This document shows positions 7,165 to 38,827 of a stretch of 46,632 nt of DNA, piece by piece. The notes under the pieces are model-generated. The model did not search any database. It saw only the letters and a program-made list of their open reading frames with translations, and was not told the origin of the DNA. The DNA comes from a virus, in IMG/VR virus record IMGVR_UViG_3300045141_000158, positions 1 to 46,632 of that record; one strand, 5' to 3'. A program made the position numbers and the translations under genes. Within the stretch, counting starts at the first letter, position 1. The number at the start of each line of letters is the position of its first letter.

Positions 7165-7194
7165 AAACCGGCGGGCCGTCCCGCCGGTTTTTTT
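7165..7194 (+). terminator. Rho-independent terminator
   Basis: Stem AAACCGGCGGG / CCCGCCGGTTT with a 4-base loop and a run of seven T, ending 16 bp or more after the 79-aa gene. It is the only textbook intrinsic terminator I see in the window. Confidence 0.95.
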
Positions 7195-7640: not shown

Positions 7641-7749
7641 ATGAGTTCCATGTGTTTCATTTGTTACGCTCACCTTGGCACGACTTCTGCATCCCTGTAG
7701 CCCAGGGACGCTTCGCGTCCATTTGACTCACAGAACAAGGAGAACGCGA

Positions 7750-8091
7750 ATGACAACCGAGAGCAAGACAAGCAGCGGGGACGCTGCAAGCTCGAAGGCT
7801 GCCAGCAAGGAAGCCCGCAAGCTGAGCGAGGACTTCAAGCCGAACGAGCCGTCGACCAACACAGGCGTCGACGAGAAGGGAGTTCCTGACGGAACCCTCG
7901 GCCCCCAGCAGCTCGAGCGCGCCGCGAACGAGGGCCTCCTTTCGCTCAGGCCCCAGCCCACTCGTGAACAGATCGAGGTCGTGCTGCGCAAGGTCAACGC
8001 CAAGAACGAGAAGGGCTTCCCCGCGATCAAGTGCAAGACCGCGAAGGAGGCGGCCGAGAAGGCCATCTCGCTTCTGAACGAGGACAAGTAA
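7750..8091 (+). CDS. First gene of the plus-strand arm, 113 aa
   Basis: ATG at 7750 with AAGGAG in place; the longer in-frame reading from 7675 covers a hairpin and has no ribosome site. The N-terminal 60 residues are Ser/Lys/Ala-rich and probably disordered. The C-terminal 50 residues form a helix-strand-helix with Lys/Glu. No domain recognised. Downstream is a 129-bp gap with three GC hairpins. Confidence 0.8.
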   Translation: MTTESKTSSGDAASSKAASKEARKLSEDFKPNEPSTNTGVDEKGVPDGTLGPQQLERAANEGLLSLRPQPTREQIEVVLRKVNAKNEKGFPAIKCKTAKEAAEKAISLLNEDK

Positions 8092-8220: not shown

Positions 8221-8424
8221 ATGGCACTTCCAGTTCTTGACCCAGGCATCGCAGCGATGGCGGCCACGATGCCGTGCTTCGTCAGGCGCCGGATCATCCT
8301 CACGGGTGACTCGACCAAGCTCGCTGACTACGGCATGTTCCCGAAGGACGGGCAATTCATCGACACGCCCCCGCGGGTCGCGTCGAAGTGGACCACCGAC
8401 ATGGACATCCATTCTCCGACATGA
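8221..8424 (+). CDS. Hypothetical protein upstream of Tad2, 67 aa
   Basis: AGGAG-spaced ATG at 8221; the stop overlaps the next ATG (ATGA). Soluble, with Met/Pro-rich stretches and a central Arg/Ile strand. Coupled to the anti-Thoeris candidate, so it may share its timing; no family recognised. Confidence 0.7.
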   Translation: MALPVLDPGIAAMAATMPCFVRRRIILTGDSTKLADYGMFPKDGQFIDTPPRVASKWTTDMDIHSPT

Positions 8425-8648
8425 CCTTCTCGCTCGCACTCGCGGCACTGAAGGAAGGCCACGCGGTCGAACGCGCGGGCTGGAACGGGCGGGGCATGTT
8501 CATCAAGCTGCAGCGCCCCGATGCCCAGTCGAAGATGACCCTGCCGTATATCTACATGAAGACGGTCCAGGGCGATCTCGTCCCGTGGCTCGCGTCGCAA
8601 ACGGACATCCTCGCGGACGACTGGGTCAGCGTCGTCAAGGAGCACTGA
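8421..8648 (+). CDS. tad2: Tad2-like anti-Thoeris protein (DUF2829), 75 aa
   Basis: The protein begins MTFSLALAALKEG, continues with VERAGWNGRGMFI, then LPYIYMKTVQGDLVPWLASQ and TDILADDW. This is the recognisable DUF2829 layout at about the family's normal length. Characterised members (Tad2) are sponge proteins that bind the cyclic ADP-ribose signals made by Thoeris ThsB and so stop ThsA from killing the cell. I infer the same role here; the conserved W-N-G-K/R-G-M-F and W-L-A-S-Q-T-D segments are intact. Start at 8421 overlaps the upstream stop. Confidence 0.85.
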   Translation: MTFSLALAALKEGHAVERAGWNGRGMFIKLQRPDAQSKMTLPYIYMKTVQGDLVPWLASQTDILADDWVSVVKEH

Positions 8649-8803
8649 TGGCAACACCGAAGGGGAACCCGATCAAGGGCAGCGAGTGCGATCCCAAGGG
8701 CAAGACGGTTGGCCTGGGTGTGGGCGCGGGCCGAGCCCCCGTCGCGCCTGGTAAAGCGTTCCCGGGCGCTGCGCGCCCACGCGGGAAGAAAGTGAAGAGG
8801 TAG
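8648..8803 (+). CDS. Small basic Gly/Pro-rich protein, 51 aa
   Basis: Starts in a TGATG overlap with tad2. Lys/Gly/Pro-rich with a very basic C-terminus (GKKVKR). Probably disordered and nucleic-acid associated; family not recognised. Confidence 0.7.
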   Translation: MATPKGNPIKGSECDPKGKTVGLGVGAGRAPVAPGKAFPGAARPRGKKVKR

Positions 8804-8806
8804 GGC

Positions 8807-8956
8807 ATGCCCGCTGTCTCGAAGGCCCAACGTCGCCTGATGGGCGCGGACTTGGCGAGGGCCAAGTCGGGGAAGAAAACCAAGACTGGCATGAAGGAGA
8901 AGCAGCTCAAGGACTTCGCGTCCACGAAGGAGCGGGATCTCCCGAACGTCAAGTAG
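8807..8956 (+). CDS. DUF3008-like small protein, 49 aa
   Basis: The peptide starts MPAVSKAQRRLMG and ends with a KDFASTKERDLP segment, which is the conserved order of the DUF3008 family of about 50-60 residues found in phages and bacteria. Function of the family is unknown. The next ATG follows its stop directly. Confidence 0.75.
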   Translation: MPAVSKAQRRLMGADLARAKSGKKTKTGMKEKQLKDFASTKERDLPNVK

Positions 8957-9544: not shown

Positions 9545-9772
9545 ATGTCGATCATGGGGATCTTGGAGTGCTTGCTCACGTTGCTCCTCGTTGCACTCGG
9601 GATCGCAGCGGTGTTCTGGATCTTGAGCATCTGCATCAAGGCGATCGGGGGCACGGAGCCCCCCGCGAACTTGATGATGGTCATGTACGCGATCGGGGTT
9701 GTTGTGCTGTTGATCGTGGCGGTGTCGTGCATCCTAGGCGGTGGGCCGCATCTGATCCACTTCTCGAGCTGA
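9545..9772 (+). CDS. Two-helix small membrane protein, holin candidate, 75 aa
   Basis: GGAAGGAG-type ribosome site before ATG at 9545. Two long hydrophobic segments (about residues 5-33 and 43-66) flank a short polar turn with Pro. Length and topology suit a class II holin, and it resembles small phage membrane proteins annotated next to terminases. No recognisable endolysin is adjacent, so the holin call rests on topology alone. Confidence 0.6.
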   Translation: MSIMGILECLLTLLLVALGIAAVFWILSICIKAIGGTEPPANLMMVMYAIGVVVLLIVAVSCILGGGPHLIHFSS

Positions 9773-11007: not shown

Positions 11008-12549
11008 ATGGTCGCCTTCGCATCTGACTTCGAGCACGCACGGTACGCCCAGGCTGAGGGCGACGCGAGTGATCGCACGGAGGACGTGCGTCTGGACTTG
11101 CGCAAGCAGGCCCAGAAGTCGACGTACGTGATGGCGAAGGCGATCGTGGGCTTCAAGGATCTGATCCCTGAGTTGCACGGGGACATGTGTCAATTCATCC
11201 AGGGACCAGCGCGGCGAAAGCTCGGGCTTGCCCCGCGCGATCATCTCAAGACCTCGGTCTGGACGATCGCGGACACCGTCCGTGTCATCGCTGCGGATTC
11301 GGATGAGCGGATCTTGATCGGGAACGAAACGGCCACGAATGCGTCCCACTTCCTGCGGCGGATTCAGGCAGTATGGGAGCGAAGTGGGATGTTCCGGTGG
11401 CTCTTCCCAGAGCTCCTGGTCGATGTCGGGAAGACCAAGTGGTCCGAAAGCGAAATGCTCGTCCCAAGGAAGCACGATTTCCCCGAGTCGACCGTCGAAG
11501 TCATGGGCGTCGGCGGGGCGGTCGTTTCCCGCCACTACAGCCGCATCAAGCTCGATGACCTCGTGGGCAAGGAGGCATCCGAGTCGGTAGACGTGATGCG
11601 GAAGACGATCGACTGGTACTTGTATTGCGAGAGTTTGCTCGAGAAGCCCATTGACCCGATTGACACGTATGGGACCCGGTGGACCCACAAGGACCTGTAC
11701 GCGTGGATTATGGAGCATGAGACGGGCATTAGCATCTTCCATCGGAAGGCGCTGCGGCCCGACGGGACGACGTTGTGGCCCGCTCGGTTCCCGGCCGAGG
11801 AGATGCTCCGCATCAAGCACAAGATCGGGAACTTCAAGTTCTCGTGCCAGTACCAGAATGAACCATTCGACCCCGAGTCAGTTACGTTCGATCCGAGTTG
11901 GCTTCGGTTCTACGAGCTTGAGGGGTGGGAGATCGAGGATGGTTTCGTAAAGCTTCGGATAGTGGGCCAGCCGCGGCCAATTCGGATCACTCCGATTCTG
12001 TTCGTAGATCCGGCGATTAGTGAGCGGGCCGGGAGTGCGCGCAGCGCGGTTGTGGCGGCAGGCCTCGACGAGTTCGAACGCATCTTGGTACTTGAGGTCT
12101 GGGCCGCACGATGCCAACCGTTGGAGATGATCGAGAAGATTTTCGAGATGAGCACGAGATGGGACCCGATGTGCGTCACCGTAGAGGGTGTCGCATACCA
12201 GCGCTGCTTGAAGGGCTTCATCGAGGCCGAGTGCATGCGCCGCAACAAGTGGCTCAATGTTCGCGAAGTAAGACCTGGCTCAAGAGAAGGAAAGGAGTCC
12301 CGCATCCGGGGACTGCAACCGTACGCTGAAAGGGGACGACTTTGGGTTCGAAGATCAACCTGCGGGTTAATGATTGAAGAATTCGAGTCGTTTCCTTTGA
12401 GCGATACGGTCGATACCCTCGACGCGTTGTCGTACTTGCCCCAAGTTGCGGTCCTGCCCGACGCAGCGATCGACGACAAGATGGGACAGGAAGATCCTGA
12501 CGAGCCCATGTTTCGATTCGAGGGCATTTCGTCGAGGACGGGCTACTGA
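11008..12549 (+). CDS. terL: Large terminase subunit (packaging ATPase-nuclease), 513 aa
   Basis: Residues 74-83 (LAPRDHLKTS) form the terminase-type Walker A, 179-186 (RIKLDDLV) the Walker B with paired Asp, and YGTRW near 221 the coupling motif. The nuclease half begins with FVDPA (Asp334) and has further acidic positions including VDTLDALSY near residue 480. The length is normal. It pumps DNA into the prohead through the portal and cuts it at the end. The start has only weak ribosome-site character, but the dyad repeat ends four bases upstream, as at 24621. Confidence 0.95.
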   Translation: MVAFASDFEHARYAQAEGDASDRTEDVRLDLRKQAQKSTYVMAKAIVGFKDLIPELHGDMCQFIQGPARRKLGLAPRDHLKTSVWTIADTVRVIAADSDERILIGNETATNASHFLRRIQAVWERSGMFRWLFPELLVDVGKTKWSESEMLVPRKHDFPESTVEVMGVGGAVVSRHYSRIKLDDLVGKEASESVDVMRKTIDWYLYCESLLEKPIDPIDTYGTRWTHKDLYAWIMEHETGISIFHRKALRPDGTTLWPARFPAEEMLRIKHKIGNFKFSCQYQNEPFDPESVTFDPSWLRFYELEGWEIEDGFVKLRIVGQPRPIRITPILFVDPAISERAGSARSAVVAAGLDEFERILVLEVWAARCQPLEMIEKIFEMSTRWDPMCVTVEGVAYQRCLKGFIEAECMRRNKWLNVREVRPGSREGKESRIRGLQPYAERGRLWVRRSTCGLMIEEFESFPLSDTVDTLDALSYLPQVAVLPDAAIDDKMGQEDPDEPMFRFEGISSRTGY

Positions 12550-13614: not shown

Positions 13615-13743
13615 ATGAGCCGTGCTCAGAAGAACGTCCGCCGCGGTGAAAGCGGTGGGAAGAAGAAGAGTTCTGCAGTGAAGCCGCCGACCGGGAAGCG
13701 CAAGGGTGGCGCGAACGACGAAGAGAAGGGCGAGAAGTACTGA
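13615..13743 (+). CDS. Lys/Gly-rich miniprotein, 42 aa
   Basis: GAGGAGG upstream of ATG at 13615; the stop overlaps the portal ATG (TGATG). Highly basic and probably disordered. One of three such tiny basic proteins in the head module. Confidence 0.7.
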   Translation: MSRAQKNVRRGESGGKKKSSAVKPPTGKRKGGANDEEKGEKY

Positions 13744-15653
13744 TGCCACAGTACAGCGGCGTAATCCCAGGTGCCCCAGTTGCTCTGACCCCCCGTGACA
13801 AGCAATGGCTGCCCAGCTACCTGAACTCAGAGCTGGAAGAAGCCCTGCAGACTCACGAAGTCAAGCTCCAGTGGATCGACGAGTCGAATCGTCTCTACAT
13901 GGGCGACCCAGTCAACGTGCGCAAGACGTTCCCCTGGGACGGTGCCGCGAATCTCGTCATTCCACTGGTGGGGATCACGGTCGACTCGATCGTGGCTCGT
14001 GTGATGAATACCATCTTCGCTGTCCAGCCTTTCTGGAGCGCAGAGGCGTTGATCAAGGACCTCGAGCCGGTCGTGAACCCCCTCCAGGACTTCATGGAGT
14101 GGTCCCGTGTCAATGAAACCGGGATGTACACCCAGACTCGCTCATGGATCGTGGAAGTCATCAAGCACGGCTGGGGGTATCTCAAGGTCTACTGGGAGTC
14201 CTTCACGCAGCGCACTTTCGTCGTCTCCAACGGTGTTGCCCGGCCTAAGGACGTCATCGTTCGTCGCCCACGAGTTCAGCATGTGCTCTTGGCAGACATC
14301 ATCTGTCAGTCGGGCATCGAGGACGAGCTGTACCAGGCAGAATGGCTTGCGCATCGTGTTCGCCTCACGGATGGCCAGCTTCGGTGGCGTGAGCACGATA
14401 AGGTCTACCAAGACGTCGACAAGATTCTCCAAACCAAGGAGCAGCCGACTCCGATGGAGGAGAAGGTCCTCGAAAACGAGTTCGAGGCACAGGTCAGTGC
14501 GCCGAAAGACAAGCTCAATACCATGTACGAGATCTATGCGGATCTCCCACTTGGTGGCAGCAAGTTGCCCGTCCCGGTGATGATCACGTATCACCATCCT
14601 ACGAAGACCATCGCCCGTTGTGTCTACAACCCAGACATCACAGGCGATAGGCCATTCAAGAAGGGGAAGTTCATCGACCGAGAGGGTAAGCGCGATGGCG
14701 TTGGGATTTCTCGCCAGCTTTCGCTCCTGCAGGAGGAGATTTCGACGCTTCACAACCAGCAGGTCGACAACGCGACCCTGGCGAACACCCGCTTCTTCAT
14801 TGGACGTCGCGGTGTTATCCGTAACGGGACTCGCGTCTGGCCTGGCCGATTCCTCACGGTTCCGGACCCGGGTCGAGACATCGTTTCCCTGCCGATGGCT
14901 GACATCTATCCTTCAATGCGTGCATTGGAGACTAGTTGTCTCGCGTATGCGGAGAGAAGGTCGGGCGTGGCGGATTACCAACTCGGCCGCGAGTCGAACG
15001 TCATGGGCAATCGCGCGACGGCGACGGGCACGCTCGCGCTCATCCAAGAAGGCAACCGACGATTCGACTTGAACGTCCGCGACGTCCGCGACTGCCTCGG
15101 TGGCGTAGGCAAGAAGCTCTTGCTCTTGAACTGCCAATTCCGGCCCAAGGGCATGGCGTACTTCGTCAAGGGCTCAGATGGTGAGCTCATCGAGAAGGTT
15201 CTGGATCTTCCCGAAGAGTTCGTCGCTGACGGCATCGGCATGGAGCTCACGGCAAGCACCGCCACGATCAACCGCGAGATCGAGAAACAGGGCCTGCTCT
15301 CGATGATGGGCACCCTGACGCAGTACTACCAGCAAGTGTTGCAGATGACGTCGGTAGCCACGAACCCCGATACGCCGCCCCCAGTCCAAAAGATGGTCGC
15401 GGAAATGGCCGACGGGGCTCGCTACCTGATGAAGATGATCGTACAGACGTTCGAAATCCGGGCCGTCGACACGCTGTTGCCGCCGAGCCTGGCAGACCAA
15501 CTGGAGGCTGACAGTGCCGCCAATCCCCAGCAACCGGGAGGACCTGCAGGAGGCCCTCAACAAAATCCGAACGGACCCGGAGTGGGTGCTCCTGTGGGAG
15601 CACCTCCTGGAGGCCCGCCAGGGATGCCTCCTCCGAATGGCGGGATGCAGTGA
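13743..15653 (+). CDS. Portal protein, 636 aa
   Basis: Residues 45-100 (tryptophan- and asparagine-rich with FPWDGAANLVIP, then VDSIVARVMNTIF) match the N-terminal wing of large phage portals. The long helical region 430-560 fits the stem and clip, and residues 590-636 are Pro/Gly/Gln-rich. The dodecameric portal forms the DNA gate at one capsid vertex, docks the terminase and later the connector. It is followed by scaffold and capsid genes in the usual order. The low-complexity tail is also the 5' half of the gene at 15514 in another frame. Confidence 0.85.
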   Translation: MPQYSGVIPGAPVALTPRDKQWLPSYLNSELEEALQTHEVKLQWIDESNRLYMGDPVNVRKTFPWDGAANLVIPLVGITVDSIVARVMNTIFAVQPFWSAEALIKDLEPVVNPLQDFMEWSRVNETGMYTQTRSWIVEVIKHGWGYLKVYWESFTQRTFVVSNGVARPKDVIVRRPRVQHVLLADIICQSGIEDELYQAEWLAHRVRLTDGQLRWREHDKVYQDVDKILQTKEQPTPMEEKVLENEFEAQVSAPKDKLNTMYEIYADLPLGGSKLPVPVMITYHHPTKTIARCVYNPDITGDRPFKKGKFIDREGKRDGVGISRQLSLLQEEISTLHNQQVDNATLANTRFFIGRRGVIRNGTRVWPGRFLTVPDPGRDIVSLPMADIYPSMRALETSCLAYAERRSGVADYQLGRESNVMGNRATATGTLALIQEGNRRFDLNVRDVRDCLGGVGKKLLLLNCQFRPKGMAYFVKGSDGELIEKVLDLPEEFVADGIGMELTASTATINREIEKQGLLSMMGTLTQYYQQVLQMTSVATNPDTPPPVQKMVAEMADGARYLMKMIVQTFEIRAVDTLLPPSLADQLEADSAANPQQPGGPAGGPQQNPNGPGVGAPVGAPPGGPPGMPPPNGGMQ

Positions 15654-21045: not shown

Positions 21046-22155
21046 ATGAGAAGCTACGGCATCACAAACGCAGCTCCCTACGCCGCGGCTCCGGCCGTCG
21101 GAGCTGCTGGCGATCTATACTTCAACACAGCGACGAAGCTCTTGTACGTCTCTGACGGTACCTCTTGGCTCATAGCTGACCTGTGGACCATATCTGGTAC
21201 CGCGCTAACACCAGTAGATACAACTAAGATCATCTACATCCCAGGGCCGATCACTGGTGATCTGTCGGCTATCGGCATTGGCAGTAGGACTGTCAAGGCC
21301 CGGTTTATCAAGTCTGTCACCAACGACTACTTCCGCATCTCCATCAACGCTTTGCTCAACAGTACTCCCGCGTGGGTACAAGATGACGTAACCAAGCCGT
21401 CGTGGGTGTTGAATCTGTTCTCAGACCCAAGCGCGCTAGATATGTTCACGATTGGTAGGACTGCTCCCGGTGGAGCATTCCCACCGGATCTGTTGCAGTT
21501 GCTCAACAATGGTGAGTTGTACGTTCTAGGTGCGCCTGCCGTATCAGGTCTCAAGATTGGCACCGGGACAATGAAGTCACGGCTAAGCGAACAGGGCGCC
21601 GGTGATTACCAGTGGCGTTGCAACATCTCACCGAACAACATCGTTGACGACGCTACAAAGCCTGCACTAGCTCTTCGTGTTGGTCCTACCTACGACGCGT
21701 TGTCATTCTTCCGTGCTGCGGCTGGTTCTGGTGCGGCGTTCTCTGAAGTGTTTCAAGCTAGCGGAGCTGGCAATCTCACGATCACAGGTGCCACGGCAAC
21801 GAAGGCTTCCGGCACGACATGGGCAAACCCATCTGATCGCCGCTTGAAGGATGAAATCGAAGACTATATCTCGGGCTTGAACGAAATCACACGGCTCCAG
21901 CCTAGGACTTTCATCTATAACGGGAAGGGTGGTTCAGCGAAGGGTCAGCGGGGATTTGGCTTCATAGCAGACGAAATTGCCTCCGTGATGCCTGAGACGG
22001 TTGGTATCCGTTCTGTGAAGCTGGAACCTGATGATGAGGAAGAAACAGAGATCCAGACACTCGATCAATCGAACCTCATTCTCGCACTCGTTAACGCAGT
22101 TAAAGAGTTAACTGCCCGTGTTGTAGCACTTGAGGCCCAACTTGCTAAGAGCTAG
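21046..22155 (+). CDS. Tail spike/fibre with S74 intramolecular chaperone, 369 aa
   Basis: N-terminal 40 residues repeat the [17 protein letters not shown] fibre motif. The C-terminal 107 residues are a Peptidase S74 chaperone domain: [10 protein letters not shown] (catalytic Ser263 with Asp264), [13 protein letters not shown], then a coiled coil (LNAVKEL-type heptads). In this family the domain trimerises the fibre and then removes itself by autocleavage before Ser. Confidence 0.9.
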
Positions 22156-35128: not shown

Positions 35129-37418
35129 AGGACCTCCTGTGCTGCTCGACGATAGCCTCGTCTAGCTCCTCCATCTCCTGCCAGTTGTCGCCACTCTTGA
35201 GCTCTACCCCGAGTGTAATCATGCCACCCCAGGTCTCAACCTCGGTCGTCATGACCCGCTCGAGGATCACGGCATTCTCATAGACCTGGTCCTCAGGAAC
35301 CTCCAGCACGATACTATCATGTACCTGGGCAAGTGGTGCAATGCCCATATTGTGCAAAGTCCTAAGGCCCTTGTTCGTCACGCCGACGATCGACGCCTGC
35401 GGCCGTTGGGCATATGCCTTCCTGAACAGATCGTCGTCCATCCGATCGAGGAACAAACGGCGACGCCCGAAGGCGTCATGAACGCACCGTCCCGCCCGTA
35501 CGATATCCCGAATCTTGGGATGCCAGAAAGCCCGAAGCTCGGGGGCCATCTCGTGATAGCTTTCGATCAGGAACTCAGCCTTACGCTTCGCTCCATATAC
35601 GCCCCGGATCACGAGGTCCTCGATATTAACCCCCGCGAGTCTGAGCTGCATGATAAGACGCTTCCATTGCATCCCATAGTTAGTCGCATGGGTCACAGTC
35701 TTGAACGTCTTATACATCAGCTCATCGCTCTTGAGGACAGGCTTCCCCATCACCCGTGTCCCAAACTCGCAGTACGGATTAAGACCGGGTGTAGTATAGA
35801 GCTTTTGTAAAGTCTTGCTGAGGCTGTCGAACGCGACGAACTGTGCCTCTGCTCTCTTGAGATCACCTTGTAGTAGTTTACGGCCGGCTGCCGCTACAAA
35901 CATCCGCCGGGCGCGCATCGGGATGTTCTGAAGTTGGGGACCCTTGCCCTTCCCCCTGCTACTCAAGCGGCCCGATTTTGTACCGTGGATTAGATAGTCA
36001 GCCCGGTACCGTCCATCGTCGTCTGGCACGACAGACAGAAACCCGCTGAGCATTGTCCGTCTTTCCCGGACGTCGATCACCTTCGTGAACACGTCTGCGT
36101 GGTCTGGGTACTTGTACGCGAGGCCCCGCAGTGTGTCTTCGTCTGTGCTCGCCTGCCCCGTCTTCGTGACCTTCAGTTTGGGCAGGTGCAGAATCTCGTG
36201 CAGCAGTTTGCGAAGATCAGGTGGGCTCTTCACGTTGATGTCAAAGCCCACCATCTGCTCAAGCTGAAGCTGTAGGTACTCCCGCTCGAGATCATACCTC
36301 CGTCTCGTCTTCTCCAATCCCTCCTTGTCGATCACGAACCCTGATGACTGCATTGCCATGATAGGCCTGATGAGGCCCATGACATGCTCATTATAGTAGT
36401 CCAACTGCCCTACCTGGATGAGCTCCTTCAGCAGTCCCTCGTAGCTTACATACGTGAGACATGCATCCTTACAGTTATACTCCCAGAGGTTTGTGCTGCT
36501 CTCATGCTTGTAGTACGGGTCGGGAGTATAGATGCTGGTAATGAACCCTAGGTCATGCGCAAACTCTGGGTACAACAGGTGATGCGCCAGCATCGTATCG
36601 AAGTGAATCCTGGGGAACCGGAACCCGTACCGTTCTAGTCGAGTGAGGTCGAACTGGATGTTCTGTCCGATGATTCCTCTGGATAGGAAGACACGGTAAA
36701 GGAGACGCCAGACGTAGGCAAGTTCGCTAGGCGAGAGACGACCTCCTCTAAAGGGTATGCAGATTGCTCGGGTCGCACTGTCGCTGATACCGACACATGT
36801 AGGGTAATCGAACCCGATAGTTTCGATATCGACCGAAATAGGGTCGCCCAGACTGTGGAGATAGTCAACAGTTGTCTGAAGGTCGGCGTTGATGGTAAAG
36901 TCTCTCTGTACTCTCCTGATATCCGGATACAAGCACTCACGCCGTGCCCTCCTCAGATCCCGTTCGATGATGTACGTTGACGGCCAATCTCGGAGTGCGT
37001 GTGCAGGGTGCAAAGTAGCGAGGACTTTACGACCGGGCACGAGAGTACAAGGTACAACCGATCCTCGCCAGGCTTCGATGCTGTCAAGACCCGTAAGCGC
37101 CTTGAGGGCCTGTGCACCACATGCGACAAAGAGGTTGGCAGTCGTAGCCGCAAGTTCCCCCCGCAGAACGGGCAATGCTTCAGTGATCTCTCCAGGCGTT
37201 GGAACCGACGCGTAGTCGCTGAAGTCTTTCCTGACATTGGTTACATAGACCTCCTGCCTTGACAGGCCGAGGAGGCGCCACAGCAATTCACCGGAACTCC
37301 CAGTGAATGGCATCTTTGTGAACACCTCATCAGAACCAGGACGCGCGCCTACCACAGCGAGCTGGCAAGCGCGCGTTCCTGATGCTGGGACCGTAGCCCC
37401 ATGAATAGATGAGGGCAT
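35106..37418 (-). CDS. DNA polymerase A with N-terminal UDG-like and 3'-5' exonuclease domains, 770 aa
   Basis: Residues 20-165 resemble a family-4 uracil-DNA glycosylase: GARPGSDE, FTGSSGELL, TNVRK and LHPAHAL, though the iron-sulfur cysteines are mostly missing. Residues 190-320 carry exonuclease motifs I (D197, E199), II (N253, D257) and III (Y314, D318), so proofreading should be active. The polymerase domain has SGRLSS, motif A at D519 (GDLKRAEAQ), motif B with THATNYG around 576-582 and motif C VHDS (H700, D701). SPO1 polymerase is a known precedent for a UDG-like N-terminus. Replicates phage DNA; coupled to the upstream methyltransferase (TAATG). Confidence 0.9.
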   Translation of the reverse strand: MPSSIHGATVPASGTRACQLAVVGARPGSDEVFTKMPFTGSSGELLWRLLGLSRQEVYVTNVRKDFSDYASVPTPGEITEALPVLRGELAATTANLFVACGAQALKALTGLDSIEAWRGSVVPCTLVPGRKVLATLHPAHALRDWPSTYIIERDLRRARRECLYPDIRRVQRDFTINADLQTTVDYLHSLGDPISVDIETIGFDYPTCVGISDSATRAICIPFRGGRLSPSELAYVWRLLYRVFLSRGIIGQNIQFDLTRLERYGFRFPRIHFDTMLAHHLLYPEFAHDLGFITSIYTPDPYYKHESSTNLWEYNCKDACLTYVSYEGLLKELIQVGQLDYYNEHVMGLIRPIMAMQSSGFVIDKEGLEKTRRRYDLEREYLQLQLEQMVGFDINVKSPPDLRKLLHEILHLPKLKVTKTGQASTDEDTLRGLAYKYPDHADVFTKVIDVRERRTMLSGFLSVVPDDDGRYRADYLIHGTKSGRLSSRGKGKGPQLQNIPMRARRMFVAAAGRKLLQGDLKRAEAQFVAFDSLSKTLQKLYTTPGLNPYCEFGTRVMGKPVLKSDELMYKTFKTVTHATNYGMQWKRLIMQLRLAGVNIEDLVIRGVYGAKRKAEFLIESYHEMAPELRAFWHPKIRDIVRAGRCVHDAFGRRRLFLDRMDDDLFRKAYAQRPQASIVGVTNKGLRTLHNMGIAPLAQVHDSIVLEVPEDQVYENAVILERVMTTEVETWGGMITLGVELKSGDNWQEMEELDEAIVEQHRRSYAAAQQG

Positions 37419-38827
37419 TACCCCTCGCTCGCCGCTGGCGTTTCCTCCGTGGTCTCGGACTGCGCGGCGATGTCTCGTGCCACCCGGTCGATCCCCGAGC
37501 GCCAGAAGTCCACATGCTTCTCGATGCCGATGAACCGCATGCCGAGCTGCGCGGCCCCGACGAGGGTACTTCCACTGCCAGCGAACGGGTCCAGTACCAG
37601 TTCCCCTTTGACGGCAGATGCCTCGATCAGATGCCGCATCAACGCAACCGGCTTCTCGACGCTGTGGATCTTCTTGCTGACTGTGTCGTACTTCAGGGTG
37701 TTGAATGGCTGAGGCTTCACGAGTGACCGGCCCCTATTGATCCAGAAGCAGGGCTCGTAGCTGTAGACCCACGCGCGATTCGGGTCCCCAATGCCGGTCG
37801 TCTGCTTGACCCAGATGATCGGGGTTTCCTCGCACGTACCGAAATGCTTCTTGAGCATCAGGTAGATGGGCTCGTACCTGGTCATGTGGAAGAACACATA
37901 GGCATGGCCGTCCGGCTTGAGCACTCTCGCGGCATGACTGAACGTCTCGTCCAGCATGTCCATGATCTCTTTCGGGTTGTCCGGGTACGCAGCGCCCTGG
38001 CTCTCCGCGAACTTGCTGCTGCTCATCGGTGCCCCCTCGCGGAACAAGCCGATGCCATACGGGGGGTCTGTGACGATCAGATCGACGGCGGCCTCGGGCA
38101 GGTTCCGCAGGACATCCCGGCTGTCCGCATGATAGAAGATCCCCAGGCCTTTCCACGTGGCCTTCCGGATCGGCTGCCGCTGGATGCCTTCGACGACCTG
38201 ATGCTCCTCGCCGTCATCGACCTGGGCCTCGGCGTTGACGTCCTCGACCTGCTTACGCTTCGCGAGCTCACCCCGAAGCTGTGTCTCCTTCAGCCTCCGG
38301 AACCGCTTGAACGCGGCACTCTTCGTCTTCTCCTCGAGCAACTCGGGGAACTCCCGCAGCCCGGCCGCAAGGGCCAGGTCCATGCTGATGCTCCCCGTGG
38401 CCCGGTCGAGCTCCCTTGCTGCGTCCTCAATTCCGTACCCAGTCCCCTCGGCGGTCCGCGAACCCTTCTGCCCGTACCTCGCCTGCTTGGCGTTGTACAG
38501 TCGGTAGAGGCCGATCACCTCTTCCTGCCACTCCAGGTCCTTGCGCCGGATGTTCTCTTCCAGCTCGATCTCCTGCCGTACCACGGGGTCGAGCTCGTCG
38601 AGCCTACGAAACGGGATGGCTTCCCAGCCCAGGTGCTTCGCGGCCAGGATACGCCGGTGGCCTGCGATCAGGTTATTCTCGCCGTCGATGACGACGGGAT
38701 TCAGAAGGCCGAAGCGGGACAAGGAGCCAGCAAGCTCCTCGATGTTCCCGAACATCTTCCGCATGCGGCCTTCGATCTTGATCTCTGTGACCTTGATCGT
38801 GTCTGTTGTCGACGCTGGCAGACTCAT
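37418..38827 (-). CDS. ParB-domain/DNA methyltransferase fusion, 469 aa
   Basis: Residues 10-115 are a ParB/Srx-type domain (NPVVIDGENNLIAGHRR; GHRR at 56-59). Residues 225-450 are a DNA N4-cytosine/N6-adenine methyltransferase of the order DPPY (254-257) then FAGSGST (415-421), both intact. Such fusions occur in phages and mobile elements; the methyltransferase may protect phage DNA from restriction and the ParB-like part may steer it to sites. GGAGG before ATG at 38827. The recognition sequence is unknown. Confidence 0.9.
   Translation of the reverse strand: MSLPASTTDTIKVTEIKIEGRMRKMFGNIEELAGSLSRFGLLNPVVIDGENNLIAGHRRILAAKHLGWEAIPFRRLDELDPVVRQEIELEENIRRKDLEWQEEVIGLYRLYNAKQARYGQKGSRTAEGTGYGIEDAARELDRATGSISMDLALAAGLREFPELLEEKTKSAAFKRFRRLKETQLRGELAKRKQVEDVNAEAQVDDGEEHQVVEGIQRQPIRKATWKGLGIFYHADSRDVLRNLPEAAVDLIVTDPPYGIGLFREGAPMSSSKFAESQGAAYPDNPKEIMDMLDETFSHAARVLKPDGHAYVFFHMTRYEPIYLMLKKHFGTCEETPIIWVKQTTGIGDPNRAWVYSYEPCFWINRGRSLVKPQPFNTLKYDTVSKKIHSVEKPVALMRHLIEASAVKGELVLDPFAGSGSTLVGAAQLGMRFIGIEKHVDFWRSGIDRVARDIAAQSETTEETPAASEG

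Follow-up and report, generated by a model that had tools for sequence, protein, structure and literature searches.

Tad2 of Bacillus phage SPO1 (gp34.65; PDB 8sme, 8smf, 8smg, 8wje) acts as a sponge for 1''-3' gcADPR against type I Thoeris, and ModTad2 of a Myroides odoratus prophage (PDB 8v3e, 9eib) as a sponge for His-ADPR against type II Thoeris. The ligands of SPO1 Tad2 and MoTad2 have been reported as gcADPR and His-ADPR, respectively (PMC13299392), and the purified SPO1 protein did not bind 3'3'-cGAMP (PMC11722364). Further solved members, HgmTad2/AcrIIA7 (PDB 8kbi-8kbm, 9kzr) and SptTad2 (8wjd), bind cADPR-type signals and/or cyclic dinucleotides. As summarised in a review, beta4, alpha3 and three loops (beta1-beta2, beta3-beta4 and beta4-alpha3) make up the gcADPR pocket, subunits pair into the dimers of the tetramer through alpha2 and beta2, and the cyclic-dinucleotide site is made by a long stretch inserted between beta2 and beta5 (PMC12043709). 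Phages commonly carry Tad2-like genes. All structures solved so far belong to long forms, while environmental viruses contain compact forms in large numbers. Since the solved members are all long, neither their oligomer nor their ligand is simply transferable to a compact form such as the one described here.

Family assignment and predicted fold

The window analysed in this study, by which we refer to the whole stretch of 46,632 bases (IMG/VR record IMGVR_UViG_3300045141_000158, positions 1 to 46,632), contains an open reading frame with an ATG start whose product of 75 residues reads MTFSLALAALKEGHAVERAGWNGRGMFIKLQRPDAQSKMTLPYIYMKTVQGDLVPWLASQTDILADDWVSVVKEH. The gene and the relevant regions of its product are:

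8421..8648, plus strand: Tad2-like gene (PF11195, formerly DUF2829), compact insert-less form, 75 residues, with Pfam, PDB sequence and AlphaFold/Foldseek matches
8478..8498, plus strand: codons 20-26 (G-W-N-G-R-G-M) in the beta1-beta2 loop region, which contributes to the ligand pocket of solved Tad2 proteins
8517..8549, plus strand: compact linker PDAQSKMTLPY, codons 33-43, at the site of the extra 13-15 residues and helix alpha2 of long forms
8583..8624, plus strand: beta4/alpha3 block, codons 55-68, PWLASQTDILADDW, with conserved P55, W56, S59, D62, D67 and W68

Both motif blocks that an earlier sequence-only reading had recognised in this DUF2829 protein, WNG-x-GMF (here WNGRGMF) and WLASQTD, are present, and the Pfam model PF11195, whose curated cut-off is 25 bits, matches with 93.8 bits (E 9.3e-27) over 70 residues and profile positions 1-72 of 73. 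PHROGs 872 and 1048, both without assigned function, match at about 1e-22, and relatives were found in 310 annotated phage records (tblastn, E<=1e-5), where they are usually labelled as hypothetical protein and sometimes as anti-CRISPR protein. NCBIfam and PADLOC returned no match to the protein, and a second Tad2 copy was not found elsewhere in the 46,632 bases of the window. Some DUF2829 proteins carry toxin-antitoxin annotations; a reading along these lines was dropped, as NCBIfam gave no match of this kind.

In a search of PDB sequences, all matches with E <0.7 are Tad2 or AcrIIA7 chains, with ModTad2 at E 1e-12 and AcrIIA7 (8kbi) as best single-sequence match at E 2.3e-16. This homology, the presence of the same Pfam domain in AcrIIA7 (PMC6739104) and the anti-CRISPR annotation of some homologues could be taken to indicate an inhibitor of type II-A Cas9. 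We regard such a role as highly improbable, since the same protein has been solved in complex with 1',2'-cADPR and cGG (8kbj, 8kbk), which is better explained by a sponge, since its homologues are found with many CRISPR subtypes and only one of them in a genome with II-A self-targeting (PMC6739104), and since the long insert of AcrIIA7 is absent from the window protein, where the spacing of two conserved tryptophans is 35 instead of 66.

An AlphaFold monomer model, built from 66 sequences comprising the window protein and viral contigs, has a mean pLDDT of 92.3 and contains a helix (3-11), strands at 16-18, 27-31, 43-47 and 53-55, a second helix (60-64) and a strand at 68-70, in line with the helix, beta1-beta2, beta3-beta4, short helix and last strand of the Tad2 fold. 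In a comparison of this model with the PDB by Foldseek, ranks 1-24 are exclusively occupied by Tad2 structures (query-normalised TM 0.80-0.88), including SPO1 Tad2 with 1''-3' gcADPR (E 7.9e-8, TM 0.85), HgmTad2 with 1',2'-cADPR (E 1.5e-7), ModTad2 with hisADPR (E 1.9e-7) and SptTad2 with cGG (E 4.2e-6), and the first match thereafter is a phage neck protein at E 0.18. The profiles of short and long forms align over 82 columns (E 2.7e-37). Judged by sequence (Pfam, PDB chains) and predicted fold (AlphaFold/Foldseek), which agree, the product of 8421-8648 is a member of the Tad2-like family, and the identity proposed from the letters alone has thus held up, also in the structural comparison with characterised Tad2 proteins.

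Conserved core and compact linker

Across 66 compact relatives, R18, W21, G23, M39, Y43, T48, P55, W56, D62, D67 and W68 are invariant and N22 shows a conservation of 0.98. When these are compared with long forms, represented by 80 loci found with ModTad2 as query plus the SPO1, Hgm and Spt sequences, a core of R18, G20, W21, N22, G23, W56, S59, D62, D67 and W68 is common to the compact proteins and all four solved types. Within this core, W21, N22 and G23 of the beta1-beta2 loop are the same in SPO1, Mod, Hgm and Spt Tad2, and W56, S59, D62, D67 and W68 of the beta4/alpha3 block are found in every solved member. The shared residues are located in or beside the elements reported for the gcADPR pocket, an assignment based on the review (PMC12043709) and on residue conservation. 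A loss of ligand-pocket residues, which the sequence-only reading had named as evidence against its proposal, was as far as checkable not seen, with ten residues in common with SPO1 Tad2, ModTad2 and HgmTad2. The gene is under purifying selection, with pairwise dN/dS values of 0.07-0.40 among compact genes, which are rough as several dS values are near saturation, and with two synonymous and no nonsynonymous changes between the window and its sister contig.

The solved members are distinguished from the window protein by the connection between beta2 and beta3. The spacing between W21 and W56 is 35 in 65 of the 66 relatives, compared to 48 in SPO1 Tad2 and ModTad2, 60 in SptTad2, 66 in HgmTad2 and mostly 48-53 in the long-form scan, and the window protein thus lacks a beta2-beta3 insert of 13-15 residues. 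In its model, codons 33-43 form a linker without regular secondary structure, whereas a control model of ModTad2, built alike, shows a strand, a helix at 44-50 and a strand in the insert region. Helix alpha2, which contributes the dimer interface of the solved tetramers, is absent by sequence and model, and a tetramer of the SPO1/ModTad2 type can therefore not be assumed for the compact protein. Equally absent is the long insertion of the HgmTad2 and SptTad2 kind (spacing 35 versus 60-66), for which reason a cyclic-dinucleotide site as in HgmTad2 is not expected. S37, K38, M39, Y43 and P55 are near-invariant and specific to the compact class. In a tree the compact forms cluster and the four solved types are found on the opposite side of a weak dividing branch (70/84, 89 columns). 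Eighty compact relatives, nearly all with the same spacing, were kept from one scan of environmental viruses, although the abundance of either class is biased by the query, as the compact and long sets were each recruited by similarity to a single one. With the PF11195 model itself spanning 73 positions, compact members are well known to databases, but none of them has a solved structure.

The comparison with individual systems reflects this combination of a shared core and a shortened connection. The window protein resembles SPO1 Tad2 both in Pfam family and in predicted fold (Foldseek E 7.9e-8), and the two proteins share the blocks WNG and SQTD..DW, the residues R, W, N, G, W, S, Q, T, D, D and W being kept, but SPO1 Tad2 comprises 89 residues with a beta2-beta3 connection that is 13 residues longer (48 versus 35), and its activity has been shown whereas that of the window protein is predicted. 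Family and fold are also shared with ModTad2, whose segment RPYLALKT aligns with LPYIYMKT of the window protein; ModTad2 differs by its length of 88 residues, by helix alpha2 in the insert of the control model and by V and S in place of Q60 and T61. HgmTad2/AcrIIA7 and SptTad2 share family, fold and an identical WLASQTD block, but contain the long insert (spacing 66 and 60) that makes the cyclic-dinucleotide site and that is absent in the window protein. A Tad2-like domain of putative function has been reported for another lytic podovirus, Sinorhizobium phage AP-20-A, whose P015 is, unlike the window protein, a long form of 97 residues that is closest to ModTad2 (PMC13299392).

Given that alpha2 is missing and the conserved segment SKMTLPYIYM stands in its place, the compact form could still sequester a nucleotide signal but differ from long forms in both oligomer and ligand, and the defence that it counters would then not be one of the Thoeris types against which long forms have been tested. 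Consistent with this idea, the compact proteins constitute a discrete length class (spacing 35 in 65 of 66, versus mostly 48-53), carry the class-specific residues S37, K38, M39, Y43 and P55, differ in linker secondary structure between the window and ModTad2 models and are set apart in the tree. We nevertheless consider it rather unlikely, as compact and long forms have identical residues in the ADPR-binding elements and as the predicted fold closely matches the gcADPR- and His-ADPR-bound forms. That the compact, alpha2-less proteins would form a separate functional class, with a different assembly and a signal not yet demonstrated as the ligand of any tested Tad2, appears unlikely.

On the ModTad2 side, the protein at L168:2614-2817 and L169:4001-4204 has a W-W spacing of 36, its insert having apparently been lost in a second, independent event. 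In L046, L050 and L052:5770-6216, the compact Tad2-like domain is part of an open reading frame reaching about 75 residues further upstream, which may be a fusion with an N-terminal domain.

Gene row in the window and in related phages

The surroundings of the gene, with genes named by their start in the window, contain:

7165..7190, both strands: perfect hairpin of 11 pairs that separates the two gene arms and resembles a terminator on either strand
7675..8091, plus arm, near its start: conserved ORF g7675
8221..8424, plus strand: upstream ORF g8221, 67 residues, group core gene, 87% identical in the cousins L086/L173 and recognisable in most cousins
8648..8803, plus strand: downstream small basic ORF g8648, 51 residues, with homologues in L183, L175, L191 and L192, none adjoining a Tad2
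8807..8956, plus strand: DUF3008 (PF11450) small protein, group core gene, Pfam E 1.5e-6, present in cousins without Tad2
11008..12549, plus arm: terminase large subunit
13743..15653, plus arm: portal

Packaging and structural genes, among them those for the major head protein and head decoration, occupy the plus arm (about 7.7 to 34 kb), and the minus arm at 35-41 kb encodes a DNA polymerase, a ParB-methyltransferase fusion, a Sak4-like protein and an exonuclease. The Tad2 gene is found at the head of the packaging and structural arm, upstream of the terminase. Its placement by the sequence-only reading at the start of the plus arm among small genes is accurate as to the head of the arm; the arm itself begins before 8221, with the ORF at 7675-8091. 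On either side the gene is joined to its neighbours by overlapping codons, its start sharing an ATGA (8421-8424) with the stop of the upstream ORF and its stop overlapping the downstream start by a single base in TGATG (8646-8650). A sigma-70 promoter scan showed nothing near the gene. Its GC content is 0.64 with a GC3 of 0.89, compared to 0.88 for the DUF3008 gene and 0.89 for g9545; as these values are not clearly apart, a foreign composition was dropped as an argument. Among annotated phages, no near relative at the DNA level was found for the first 25 kb of the window, and a genome scan for the host yielded 10 genome contigs with relatives, mostly MAG contigs of scattered taxa, and no assignment.

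The window belongs to a phage group in which 23 loci share the terminase at 69-100% identity, with the gene order g7675, g8221, a slot, DUF3008, g9774, g9937, g10569 and TerL. Only one further contig of these loci, the sister L171/L002 with 97-98% identical DNA, also carries Tad2. The gene is missing in the nine other loci that contain both g8221 and DUF3008 (L086, L173, L176, L183-L188), and it was not found in twelve cousin contigs examined over their full length, which is 47-49 kb in five cases. The ATGA junction of g8221 is immediately followed, in both L086 and L173, by a 51-residue basic ORF and then by DUF3008, and in the window Tad2 is located exactly between g8221 and an ORF of this kind. 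The insertion comprises a single gene, Tad2, placed at a start/stop junction of an otherwise conserved row. A gain in the lineage of the window is its simplest reading, and the empty site in sister phages provides a clean comparison pair.

In light of this distribution, we consider a role in the late programme of the phage itself (packaging, virion or lysis), for which the Tad2 fold would not serve signal sequestration, as quite improbable. It is suggested by the location upstream of the terminase and the overlap with core genes, and by a relative in Mycobacterium phage Curiosium that is likewise found few genes upstream of the terminase. The absence of Tad2 from all nine other members with both flanking anchors and from the five 47-49 kb cousin contigs instead implies that it is not needed for this programme, and in other phages the compact gene adjoins genes for ribonucleotide reductase, terminase, portal, PhoH, GroES or helicase. 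The lack of a constant partner fits a stand-alone mobile gene.

The sequence-only reading had further interpreted the row at 8221-8956 as an anti-defence island whose neighbours share the role of Tad2. A run of several small genes without assigned function and the varying content of the slot among cousins might point in this direction; the idea has nevertheless become very doubtful, as g8221, g8648-like and DUF3008 genes are common to cousins without Tad2, as the slot of most cousins holds a holin-like membrane protein and an endolysin-like protein, and as none of the neighbours has a PADLOC match. In Pfam, PHROGs, PADLOC and NCBIfam, the neighbours gave no match to a defence or anti-defence family, and g8221 and g8648 no family match at all. 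Tad2 is the sole putative anti-defence gene identified in a row whose other members are group core genes. The holin-like and endolysin-like slot genes appear to be lysis-type, as inferred from their sequences, with the endolysin-like protein of L183 matching Glyco_hydro_19 weakly, at E 1.5e-4 and narrowly below the Pfam cut-off; in the window and in L173 both kinds are absent from the slot. A membrane ORF of 75 residues at 9545-9772 is a holin candidate in the window phage. Collagen-repeat proteins are encoded in or near the cousin slot at L184:3944-4681 (Pfam Collagen E 4e-9) and L190:267-899, and slot proteins of about 400 residues with signal-peptide-like starts at L187:4943-6145, with weak DUF7450 repeats, and L178:414-1703.

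Putative ligand and function

On the basis of its sequence and model, we favour, with moderate confidence, an interpretation of the 75-residue protein as a sponge for an ADPR-type Thoeris signal. The protein, once made during infection, would most likely assemble into an oligomer, which would bind an ADP-ribose-type alarm molecule from a host TIR protein, either a gcADPR isomer or His-ADPR, with contacts to the ligand provided by the WNG loop and the PWLASQTD block. As a consequence of this sequestration the Thoeris effector would stay off. That the protein binds a ligand, which one it binds, that it forms an oligomer and that it counteracts Thoeris are here proposed by analogy to the characterised proteins. 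An accessory insertion of a single gene, without constant partner elsewhere, agrees with what one would expect if an anti-defence gene acts on its own. Against a sponge count the absence of alpha2, due to which the intersubunit pocket may form differently, the placement of the solved members across a weakly supported branch of the tree and the location of the gene among packaging and structural genes rather than visibly among early ones. Cyclic dinucleotides, which HgmTad2 and SptTad2 capture, are probably not sequestered by the window protein, as it lacks the site-forming insert. The choice between the ADPR-type signals cannot be made by homology, since SPO1 Tad2 and ModTad2 take different ligands. 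If active, the compact form would come close to a minimal signal sponge and thereby reveal the parts that Tad2 cannot do without, and if it binds another signal, it would point to a defence that has not yet been matched to Tad2.

Elsewhere in the window, the minus-strand gene at 37418-38827 in the replication arm encodes a ParB-like domain fused to a DNA methyltransferase, which could shield the phage DNA from restriction. A Peptidase S74 endosialidase-chaperone domain, which is typical of tail spikes and fibres, is encoded at 21046-22155.
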